64,000 nucleotides of DNA from NCBI RefSeq assembly GCF_003751635.1, contig NZ_RJVI01000001.1, positions 970,726 through 1,034,725 on the forward strand. Direction: 5' to 3'. Made by a program: the position numbers and the translations under genes. The stretch comes from Inmirania thermothiophila. Lineage in GTDB: Bacteria; Pseudomonadota; Gammaproteobacteria; DSM-100275. Positions 43,944 through 49,473 of the stretch are shown here, in pieces. Below the pieces are notes generated by a model. It was not told the DNA's origin. It worked only from the letters and a program-made list of their open reading frames with translations, and did no database searches. Each line of letters opens with the position of its first letter. The first letter of the stretch is position 1.

Positions 43944-45501
<1,558 letters not shown>

Positions 45502-45509
45502 GCACGGCC

Positions 45510-46142
45510 ATGATCCTGCCGGAGGGGCGCTACCTGGCGGCGCTCGGCGTGGCGGCGGCCCTCGCCGCGGCCGCCGCCGACCGCCCCCTGGCGGCCGCGG
45601 CCGCGGCTGCGCTCGGGACCGCCGCGGCCTGGCTCTTCCGCGATCCCGAGCGGGCGGTGCCGGCGGTGCCGCTGGGCATCGTCAGCCCCTGCGACGGGCG
45701 GGTGCTGCGCGTCGGGCGGGTGCGGGACCCCTTCCTCGGGCGCGAGGCGGTGGAGGTGGCGATCCGCATGCCGCTGCTCGGCGGCTACGTCCTGCGTGCG
45801 CCGGTGGAGGGACGGGTGATGGAGCTGGGGCGCCCCCCCTTCGTGCCGGAGGGGGAGGACGGGGATGCCGTCGGGGTGTGGCTGCGCACCGACGAGGGTG
45901 ACGACGTGGTGCTGGTGCTGCCGGGCCGCATCGGGCGCGGGCGGGTGCGGCTTGCGGTGCGCGCGGGCGAGCGGCTCGGCCAGGGCCAGCGCTGCGGCCG
46001 GGTGCGCCTCGGCACCGAGGTGGGGCTGCTGCTGCCGGCGACGAGCCGGATCGGCGTGCAGCCGGGGACGCGCCTGCTCGCCGGCAGCCACCTCGTGGGC
46101 GAGCTGGTGCACGCGCAACCGCGGGAGGCGGCGACGGCATGA
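45510..46142 (+). CDS. Degenerate phosphatidylserine-decarboxylase-like protein
   Basis: The 210-residue protein aligns with short bacterial Psd proenzymes: WLFRDPERAVP, IVSPCDGRV with the catalytic Asp62, RAPVEGRV and GLLLP. Two critical sites are altered. The H-V-N-R block, which carries the catalytic His in Psd, reads GGYVLR here. The self-processing G-S of FGSR reads LGTE, with Thr169 in place of the Ser that becomes the pyruvoyl group. It sits between ilvC and pssA, the normal Psd position, with the pssA ATG overlapping its stop. It is probably not a normal decarboxylase; pseudoenzyme or altered processing is possible. Confidence 0.7.
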   Translation: MILPEGRYLAALGVAAALAAAAADRPLAAAAAAALGTAAAWLFRDPERAVPAVPLGIVSPCDGRVLRVGRVRDPFLGREAVEVAIRMPLLGGYVLRAPVEGRVMELGRPPFVPEGEDGDAVGVWLRTDEGDDVVLVLPGRIGRGRVRLAVRAGERLGQGQRCGRVRLGTEVGLLLPATSRIGVQPGTRLLAGSHLVGELVHAQPREAATA

Positions 46143-46897
46143 GCGGACCCGACGGCACCGGCGGGCGGGTGCGCCGCCGCGGCGTCTACCTCCTGCCCAA
46201 CCTCTTCACCACCGCGGCGCTCTTCGCCGGCTTCTACGCCATCGTCGCCGCCATGGGCGGGCGCTACGAGGCGGCGGCGGTGGCCGTCTACGTCGCCATG
46301 CTCATGGACGGGCTCGACGGACGCGTGGCACGCCTGACCCAGACCCAGTCCGAGTTCGGCGTCCAGTACGACAGCCTCGCCGACGTCGTCTCCTTCGGCC
46401 TCGCCCCGGCCCTGGTGGTCTACCAGTGGGCGCTGGTGGGGCTCGGCAAGCCGGGCTGGCTGGCGGCGTTCCTCTACGCCGCCTGCGCGGCGCTGCGCCT
46501 TGCGCGCTTCAACACCCAGGTGGGGATCGTCGACAAGCGCTTCTTCCAGGGGCTGGCGAGCCCGCCGGCGGCGGCGCTGGTGACGGGCCTGGTGTGGGTC
46601 GGCGCCCAGGCGGGGTGGGACGGGCGGGCGCTGGCGCTGCCGGCCTTCGCCCTCACCATCGCCGCCGGCCTGCTCATGGTCAGCAACATCCGCTACTACA
46701 GCTTCAAGGACATCGACCTCAAGGGTCGTGTCCCCTTCATGGCCGCGGTGGCGGTGGCGGTCCTCTTCGCCGTGGTCTTCGTGCAGCCGGCCGTGGTCCT
46801 GTTCACCATGGCGGCGGTCTACGCCCTCTCGGGACCGGTGTGGACGGTGGCCGGGCTCCGGCGCCGGCGCGCCGCCCGCCGCGGCGGGCAGGGCTGA
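46139..46897 (+). CDS. pssA: CDP-diacylglycerol-serine O-phosphatidyltransferase
   Basis: The 252-residue type II (membrane) phosphatidylserine synthase has the full CDP-alcohol motif in DGRVARLTQTQSEFGVQYDSLAD. It also has YLLPNLFTTAALFAGFYAI and ALRLARFNTQ helices and about eight membrane segments. It makes phosphatidylserine for phosphatidylethanolamine synthesis. The start overlaps the psd-like stop (ATGA). A promoter for the leuA leader starts 4 bp after its stop. Confidence 0.95.
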   Translation: MSGPDGTGGRVRRRGVYLLPNLFTTAALFAGFYAIVAAMGGRYEAAAVAVYVAMLMDGLDGRVARLTQTQSEFGVQYDSLADVVSFGLAPALVVYQWALVGLGKPGWLAAFLYAACAALRLARFNTQVGIVDKRFFQGLASPPAAALVTGLVWVGAQAGWDGRALALPAFALTIAAGLLMVSNIRYYSFKDIDLKGRVPFMAAVAVAVLFAVVFVQPAVVLFTMAAVYALSGPVWTVAGLRRRRAARRGGQG

Positions 46898-46939: not shown

Positions 46940-47053
46940 ATGGACCACCGCACCGGGCGCAGCACCGTCTCCCGCCGCACCGGCCTTCCGCGCCGGGGCC
47001 TTGCGCTCGGCCTTCGCCTGCTGCGACTCCTGCCGCCGCACGGCGGCAACTGA
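46940..47053 (+). CDS. leuL: Probable leuA leader peptide (attenuator)
   Basis: A 37-codon open frame directly after the promoter encodes a short basic peptide with seven Leu residues among the thirteen following its central region (LALGLRLLRLL), in codons CTT, CTC and CTG. It ends at TGA 47053, 96 bp before leuA. A stem TGCCGCC-4-GGCGGCA (47031-47048) overlaps the end of the coding part, and a second CCCCC-GC-GGGGG stem lies at 47067-47078. The arrangement fits leucine attenuation as known for leu operons. The absence of a U-run means the termination mode is uncertain. It was not long enough to stand out as a normal gene. Confidence 0.65.
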   Translation: MDHRTGRSTVSRRTGLPRRGLALGLRLLRLLPPHGGN

Positions 47054-47149: not shown

Positions 47150-48694
47150 ATGAGCGATCGGCTGATCATCTTCGACACCACCCTGCGCGACGGGGAGCAG
47201 AGCCCCGGCGCCTCCATGACGCGGGACGAGAAGGTGCGCATCGCCAAGGCGCTGGAGCGGCTGCGCGTCGACGTCATCGAGGCCGGCTTCCCCATCGCCA
47301 GCCCCGGGGACTTCGAGGCCGTGCAGGCGGTCGCGGAGGCGGTGCGCGAGAGCACCGTCTGCGGCCTCGCGCGGGCCAAGGACGCCGACATCGACCGCGC
47401 CGCCGAGGCGTTGCGCCCGGCGGCGCGGGCGCGCATCCACACCTTCATCGCCACCTCGCCCATCCACATGCGGGAGAAGCTGCGGCTCGAGCCCGACGAG
47501 GTGGTGGCGCACGCCGTGCGGGCGGTGCGGCGGGCGCGCCGCTACACCGACGACGTGGAGTTCTCGCCGGAGGACGCCGGCCGCTCGGAGCCCGACTTCC
47601 TCTGCCGCATCCTGGAGGCGGTGATCGCCGCCGGCGCCACCACGGTCAACATCCCCGACACCGTGGGCTACGCCCTGCCGGACCAGTTCGGGGCCCTCAT
47701 CGCCGAGCTCATGGCGCGGGTGCCCAACGCCGACAAGGCGGTGTGGTCGGTGCACTGTCACAACGACCTGGGGCTCGCGGTGGCCAACTCGCTAGCCGCG
47801 GTGCTCGCCGGCGCGCGCCAGGTGGAGTGCACCATCAACGGTCTCGGCGAGCGCGCCGGCAACGCCGCCCTCGAGGAGGTGGTGATGGCGGTGCGCACGC
47901 GCCAGGACCGCTTCCCCTGCGACACCGGCATCGACACCCGCCAGATCGTGCCCTGCTCGCGCCTGGTGGCCTCCATCACCGGCTTCCCGGTGCAGCCCAA
48001 CAAGGCGGTGGTGGGCGCCAACGCCTTCGCCCACGAGTCGGGCATCCACCAGGACGGGGTGCTCAAGAAGCGCGAGACCTACGAGATCATGCGCGCCGAG
48101 GACGTGGGCTGGAGCGCCAACCGCATCGTGCTCGGCAAGCACTCGGGCCGCAACGCCTTCCGCACGCGGCTGCGCGAGCTGGGCATCGAGTTCGACTCCG
48201 AGGAGGCCCTCAACGAGGCCTTCGCCCGCTTCAAGGAGCTCGCCGACAAGAAGCACGAGATCTACGACGAGGACCTGCAGGCCCTCGTCAGCGAGACCGC
48301 GGTGGTGACGGGGCAGGAGCGCCTGCGCCTGGTGTATCTGCGGGTCTGCAGCGAGACCGGCGAGACCCCCGAGGCCACGGTCACCGTCGCCGTGGACGGC
48401 GAGGAGCGCACGGCCACCGCGCGCGGCGACGGCCCCGTGGACGCCAGCTTCCGCGCCATCGAATCCATCGTCGCCAGCGGCACCGAGCTGCTCCTCTACT
48501 CGGTCAACAGCATCACCACCGGCACCGACGCCCAGGGCGAGGTCACGGTGCGGCTGCGCAAGAACGGGCGCGTGGTCAACGGCCAGGGGGCCGACACCGA
48601 CATCGTCATCGCCTCGGCCAAGTCCTACATCAACGCCCTCAACCGGATCCTGCAGGGCGAGCCCAAGACCCACCCCCAGGCGGGCGACGTCTGA
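47150..48694 (+). CDS. leuA: 2-Isopropylmalate synthase
   Basis: The 514-residue enzyme condenses acetyl-CoA with 2-ketoisovalerate to start leucine synthesis. [16 protein letters not shown] is at residues 8-23, the metal-binding HCHNDLG and the [17 protein letters not shown] block follow, and the C-terminal LeuA dimer domain responsible for leucine feedback begins near residue 390. Length matches the proteobacterial long form. It acts downstream of ilvBHC products encoded 3 kb upstream. leuBCD are not in the window. Confidence 0.97.
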
Positions 48695-48768: not shown

Positions 48769-49473
48769 ATGGACGCACGCCGACTCGCAGTTCTGCAGGC
48801 CATGGGCATCACGGTGTGGGTGCGCCGCACGGCGCACCCGCCCGTGGCCGCGGCGCCGCCGGGGACACCCGCCGGGGCGGGGGCGGCGCCCGACGGGCCG
48901 CAGAGCGCGGACTGGGAGCGGCTGGCCTCGCTGGTGGAGGGCTGCACCCGCTGCCCCCTGCACCGCGGCCGCACCCGCACGGTCTTCGGGGTCGGGGACC
49001 GCACCGGCCCGTGGATGGTGGTGGGCGAGGCCCCGGGGGCGGAGGAGGACCGGCGCGGCGAGCCCTTCGTGGGCCGGGCGGGTCAGTTGCTCGACCGCAT
49101 GCTCGCCGCCATCGGCCTCGTCCGCGGGCGCGGGGTCTACATCGCCAACGTCCTCAAATGCCGCCCCCCGGACAACCGCGACCCGCTGCCCGAGGAGGCG
49201 GCCGCCTGCCGGCCGTACCTGGAGCGGCAGCTCGCCCTGGTGGCGCCGCGGGTCGTCCTCGCCGTGGGCCGCATCGCGGCGCAGAACCTGCTCGGCACCG
49301 CGGAGGGTCTCGGGCGGCTGCGCGGGCGCGTCCACCGCCTGCCCGGCACCGGCGTGCCGGTGGTGGTGACCTATCACCCGGCCTACCTGCTGCGCTCGCC
49401 GCAGCAGAAGCGGCGGGCGTGGGAGGACCTGTGCCTGGCCCGCCGCGTCGCCGCCGGGGAGGCGGGGCCGTGA
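48769..49473 (+). CDS. Uracil-DNA glycosylase family protein (type 4/5-like)
   Basis: The 234-residue protein removes uracil from DNA. It has an iron-sulfur-type cysteine set ([22 protein letters not shown]) and the motif [24 protein letters not shown]. The closing active-site motif is YHPAYLL. The N-terminal 45 residues include a proline-rich linker, as in phage-SPO1-like annotated homologues. It begins 74 bp after leuA and its stop overlaps the rimI start. Confidence 0.9.

Follow-up and report, generated by a model that had tools for sequence, protein, structure and literature searches.

The main membrane lipid of many bacteria is a product of phosphatidylserine decarboxylase (Psd). The bacterial short-chain Psd (PRK05305/COG0688), as encoded between ilvC and pssA in Burkholderiales, is the closest described relative of the protein reported here, termed PsdX, and probably belongs to the same fold family. 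Both share two N-terminal helices, the FRDPxR and SPxDG motifs and the slot ilvBHC-psd-pssA-leuA, whereas PsdX lacks the His, FGSR, NA..DKA...NERN and Q.AGL.ARR elements of the short-chain enzyme and possesses E100, TDExD, R155-x-GQG and H201 instead. The E. coli-type long Psd (TIGR00163) is a member of the same superfamily but of a different subfamily; it is characterized by H..H and LGST-type motifs and is encoded at an unlinked locus; TIGR00163 matched 2 of 95 aligned short-type proteins, and these weakly. For the E. coli enzyme a D90/D142-H144-S254 triad was reported, and H144 mutants were found to form no PE, even where cleavage eventually occurs (PMC7952604).

Pseudoenzymes in general are already known. 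For comparison with PsdX the prozyme is relevant, the fold of which is unrelated to that of Psd. Like PsdX, which coexists with a long Psd that is intact by sequence, it is a dead paralogue of a pyruvoyl decarboxylase retained next to an active one. For the prozyme allosteric activation is proven (PMC5201418), whereas any partner of PsdX is putative. Within the open-access literature searched, no description of a Psd pseudoenzyme, of an inactive homologue or of an ilvC/pssA-linked paralogue was found.

The psdX gene and its surroundings

The window, i.e. the 64,000-nucleotide stretch of Inmirania thermothiophila DNA analysed here, encodes one member of the previously undescribed PsdX family (Table 1). 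An earlier reading of the sequence only had proposed a PSD homologue without processing serine and catalytic histidine, and this description holds true: in place of HVNR there is G-Y93-V94-L95-R96, L-G168-T169-E170 stands at the FGSR site, and the match to PF02666 is genuine (E 4.6e-14, 53 bits, above the gathering cut-off of 22). Translation of 45510-46142 likewise agrees with the retention of Asp62 within SPCDGRV. The protein scored far below the cut-off for all 11 NCBIfam Psd models (best 82.7 of 262 bits), none of the NCBIfam models is specific to PsdX, and a phmmer search against solved structures gave no match. The position ahead of pssA with an overlapping start, also part of the earlier reading, is found at the nucleotide level, with the pssA ATG (46139-46141) overlapping the psdX TGA (46140-46142), an arrangement which may couple the translation of both genes.

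Table 1. Features of the psdX locus (window positions) and the evidence for each
Feature	Position	Strand	Evidence
ilvC, upstream neighbour of psdX	44485..45501	+	Synteny conserved in related loci
psdX, 210-aa pseudo-phosphatidylserine decarboxylase, predicted short-Psd fold	45510..46142	+	Translation, PF02666, AlphaFold2 model
Presumed membrane anchor formed by two helices at the N-terminus (residues 4-22, 26-42)	45519..45635	+	Model secondary structure, hydrophobic sequence
Asp62 (SPxDG), retained acid, equivalent to E. coli Asp90	45693..45695	+	55/64 PsdX, 28/28 canonical
Tyr93 replacing catalytic His (E. coli His144 equivalent)	45786..45788	+	Tyr/Phe 53/64 PsdX; His 28/28 canonical, 4/4 transitional
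Glu100, PsdX-specific invariant	45807..45809	+	64/64 PsdX, 4/4 transitional; Asp/Ala/Asn mixed in canonical
Acidic motif T-D-E-G-D-D, residues 127-132, PsdX-specific	45888..45905	+	4/4 transitional; unconserved in canonical
GERLGQG motif, residues 153-159, PsdX-specific	45966..45986	+	R155 64/64, G157 63/64, Q158 59/64
Thr169 at lost processing-Ser position (FGSR to LGTE)	46014..46016	+	Ser 28/28 canonical; Gly/Ala/Arg/Ser and others in PsdX
ATGA overlap, psdX stop and pssA start	46139..46142	+	Sequence
pssA, CDP-alcohol phosphatidyltransferase-type phosphatidylserine synthase	46139..46897	+	TIGR00473 121.6 bits, cut-off 107
leuA, downstream neighbour	47150..48694	+	Synteny conserved
udg (uracil-DNA glycosylase-like), ancestral gene-order marker	48769..49473	+	Directly after psdX in 7 of the Woeseiaceae-like loci, after leuA elsewhere

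The AlphaFold2 model of PsdX (pLDDT 92.2, pTM 0.86) consists of the two N-terminal helices, for which a role at the membrane appears plausible, and a beta domain. A Foldseek comparison with the PDB returned the PSD-family protein PsiD with a probability of 1.00, but the match was weak (E 6.5e-3, TM-score 0.40); other matches were LytM-type barrels with weak E values. In the order of the predicted strands, Glu100 lies ahead of strand 101-107 and Asp128 comes after strand 120-126; a hairpin formed by these strands would make the two acids neighbours.

Between pssA and leuA an ORF of 37 codons with a Leu/Arg-rich end was noticed (46940-47053, plus strand; GLALGLRLLRLLPPHGGN), which could encode a leu-type leader peptide. 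An Rfam search of the window from 41 to 50 kb, including the pssA-leuA gap, matched no family, and a plasmid search gave no match.

Spread, gene order and selection of the PsdX family

A profile built from the first relatives identified 175 related places in a species-level genome collection. The 80 best of these were retained, and nearly all of these 80 loci possess the order ilvB-ilvH-ilvC-psdX-pssA-leuA on a single strand. PsdX was defined by E100, T/S-D-E-x-D and R155-x-GQG, by the absence of HxNR and FGSR, and by a position adjoining pssA or udg; the window protein shows these residues, lacks both motifs and occupies such a position. When 232 gammaproteobacterial genomes were sampled, profile matches were obtained for 79, which by their residues comprise 65 with PsdX, 10 with a canonical short Psd, two with a transitional form and two in which the match was a weak one to part of a long Psd. 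The 65 PsdX genomes represent about 44 family codes, between which PsdX identity ranges from 24 to 50%, and many lineages do not possess PsdX. Its typical neighbourhood is ilvBHC-psdX-pssA-leuA-udg-rimI, synteny of psdX and pssA is near-universal, and the psdX stop is separated from the most upstream pssA start by a median of 24 nt (71 loci). In Burkholderiales and other classes the same slot holds a short Psd of active appearance, with His and FGSR present and the acidic motif absent in 19 of 19.

Among close relatives the pairwise dN/dS of psdX reached at most 0.31 and mostly lay between 0.05 and 0.2, which is near that of pssA and higher than that of ilvC. As none of the pairs measured exceeded 0.31, a pseudogene was ruled out. 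Reading frames are open across about 44 families, and frequent frameshifts in relatives were not seen. The low dN/dS and the conserved slot thus bear out the earlier assumption that the gene is maintained. One extremely divergent PsdX-like protein (L191, genome G088) adjoins pssA and carries TDEGGK, no GQG and a very long branch; this copy is possibly decaying.

Residues lost and residues gained

For residue comparison, 64 PsdX proteins were set against 28 canonical ones, next to four transitional proteins. PsdX was found to lack the F.MNVF.VH run, the NA..DKA...NERN loop, Q.AGL.ARR and FIRFGSR, and dozens of near-invariant canonical positions are gone, so that the loss extends far beyond two sites. 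The window protein, too, is devoid of the NA..DKA...NERN loop and Q.AGL.ARR, most positions of which are found in 28/28 canonical proteins; His and the processing Ser are each present in all 28 canonical short Psds from this slot. The alignment check confirmed that the substitutions first noticed in the window protein are common to its relatives, the losses being family-wide. A sequencing error concealing Ser and His is excluded, because the losses recur in dozens of independent genomes.

PsdX has, in turn, gained residues of its own. Besides Glu100, Arg155, Gly157 and Gln158, near-invariance was identified for Asp128 and Glu129 (64/64 each) and Asp131 (61/64), and His201 is found in 53/64. 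The earlier option that the protein acts in another way can now be narrowed to these PsdX-specific invariant residues. Since the canonical motifs are lost and the alignment places Tyr93 at the position of E. coli H144, the sequence makes it very unlikely that PsdX decarboxylates PS. Processing via Thr, which had also been considered, finds no support, as the residue at the Ser site is Thr in 2 of 92 relatives and Gly, Ala, Ser, Arg, Cys or Lys elsewhere, and as loss of His144 abolishes decarboxylation in E. coli (PMC7952604).

Co-occurrence with an intact long Psd

The search for a second, complete psd in the same genome was successful. An E. coli-type long Psd with intact HRIH and VGST is encoded at G000:C2:880369-881016 (187.8 bits), and psdX is therefore a paralogue and was ruled out as the genome's sole Psd. 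Across the sampled genomes, a long Psd (strong PF02666 match) was identified in 61 of the 65 with PsdX and in none of the 12 where this position is taken by a canonical or a transitional short Psd (Fisher p 5e-11, a value which overstates independence as the genomes are related). TIGR00163 gives the same split, which is as expected if PsdX cannot make PE. All four PsdX genomes without detected long Psd (G080, G175, G196 and G217) are fragmented assemblies, for which either assembly gaps or PE being made differently or not at all would account. Conversely, many genomes, indeed most of those with long Psd, do not possess PsdX, and for this reason PsdX is not generally needed by long Psd. Two PsdX genomes encode a further PSD-type protein away from the ilv locus (L193 in G074 and L192 in G138), with HINR/HVQR and WGS/LGS, possibly representing a third PSD kind.

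Loci without the operon partners

In Woeseiaceae-like loci psdX is followed by udg and rimI, and ilvBHC, pssA and leuA are gone. Here udg lies directly 3' of psdX (seven loci), whereas elsewhere it follows leuA. As psdX was kept after ilvBHC, pssA and leuA had left, it is not merely an operon passenger. Both PsdX and long Psd are found in 8/8 of these genomes, six of which hold a homologue 33-36% identical to the window PssA and the others nothing comparable; a search for the PLD-type PssA of E. coli in them gave no convincing match. It follows from the persistence of PsdX without its cognate PssA that a PssA of the window type is not the sole possible partner, and the assumption of PssA as exclusive partner is weakened by these genomes holding a divergent PssA homologue or none. 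A divergent CDP-alcohol phosphatidyltransferase of Woeseia, 33% identical to the window PssA, is encoded at L217 (G522) 1456-2262 on the minus strand, adjoining the gene of a PDZ-domain-like protein.

Transitional proteins and the origin of PsdX

Four proteins (L082, L088, G098 and G205) occupy the same slot as PsdX and combine all canonical invariants with E100, D128, E129, D131, R155, G157 and H201. They hence share the PsdX-specific residues, and differ from PsdX in keeping every canonical catalytic motif. In G098 and G205 the transitional short Psd is the only Psd found and, as a consequence, is presumably active. In the tree, PsdX is set apart by a branch with an SH-aLRT of 100, or 98 when all diagnostic columns and the loop are left out, and the transitional rows fall on the canonical side. 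The simplest explanation is that the PsdX-specific set arose in an active Psd and that catalysis was lost later; the position of the transitional rows fits that order but, the tree being unrooted, does not prove it.

Proposed role of PsdX

Considering the family-wide loss of catalytic motifs, the low dN/dS, the conserved slot and the intact second Psd, the suggestion of a pseudoenzyme made in the sequence-only reading is supported: PsdX is very probably both dead and under selection, and thus neither a pseudogene nor a sequencing error nor a Thr-processed enzyme. With regard to its role, a non-catalytic regulator or partner in PS/PE synthesis is, on balance, slightly favoured. The model assumes an active short Psd as the former occupant of the ilvC-psd-pssA slot; in one lineage this enzyme would have gained a second feature comprising Glu100, T/S-D-E-x-D, Arg155, GQG and His201. 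Once decarboxylation had passed to an E. coli-type long Psd, the catalytic parts, i.e. His, the Gly-Ser site, the NA..DKA...NERN loop and Q.AGL.ARR, would have been free to decay, and the second function would have kept PsdX under selection. Nowadays PsdX may be an uncleaved, membrane-anchored protein which senses or binds PS or another anionic lipid and which, by binding PssA and/or long Psd, might adjust their activity or hand over PS.

That PsdX acts like a prozyme, forming a hetero-oligomer with long Psd and thereby activating or maturing it, is considered unlikely. The trypanosome S-adenosylmethionine decarboxylase provides the precedent of a dead paralogue (PMC5201418), the assumed partner would be a pyruvoyl decarboxylase as well, and it co-occurs with PsdX in 61/65 genomes and in all eight Woeseiaceae-like ones, where PsdX persists with the cognate PssA gone. 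This co-occurrence, however, would also follow simply from cells having to possess some enzyme that makes PE; moreover, most long-Psd genomes do without PsdX, the long Psd of the window genome is complete by sequence, and psdX sits with pssA and not with the long psd.

Somewhat more doubtful is a new enzyme in which Glu100, Asp128, Glu129 and Asp131 together with Arg155 and His201 would form a site for catalysis or metal binding, with a phospholipid head group as its target. Invariance of charged residues in 61-64 of 64 proteins is more than a loose scaffold needs, and a hairpin as suggested by the strand order would join Glu100 and Asp128. Yet the transitional proteins hold the same set alongside an intact decarboxylase site, no known lipid enzyme with this motif was found here, and Foldseek pointed, with weak E values, to PSD-family and LytM-type barrels only.

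A working PS decarboxylase which self-processes via Thr169 or another route is highly improbable: the predicted fold, Asp62 and the gene position are kept and FGS is present in some PsdX proteins, but His is gone in nearly all of them, the Ser site is occupied by Gly, Ala, Arg or further residues, both the NERN loop and AGL.ARR are missing, His144 mutants of E. coli make no PE (PMC7952604) and the genome encodes a complete long Psd. Least credible of all is a decaying remnant or operon passenger, as which the fast divergence between families and the many lineages without psdX might be read; against it stand dN/dS values that exceed 0.31 in no pair, reading frames that are open in about 44 families, the newly gained invariant residues and the retention of psdX once its operon partners had left.

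Returning to PsdX as a pseudoenzyme, a more specific scenario can be put forward tentatively, namely that an active Psd gained a second function with a near-invariant charged site, was freed from decarboxylation by a non-orthologous long Psd and might now, as a prozyme-like activator or a new enzyme acting on lipids, control the synthesis of PE in many Gammaproteobacteria.

With PsdX, Psd would join the enzymes with a pseudoenzyme counterpart retained under selection, a case for which the open-access papers searched hold no description. As a practical consequence, psdX genes may carry a wrong name, phosphatidylserine decarboxylase, in databases. PsdX offers a rare chance to see how an enzyme gives up catalysis and is yet preserved for another function, and points to a further layer of control in PS/PE synthesis.
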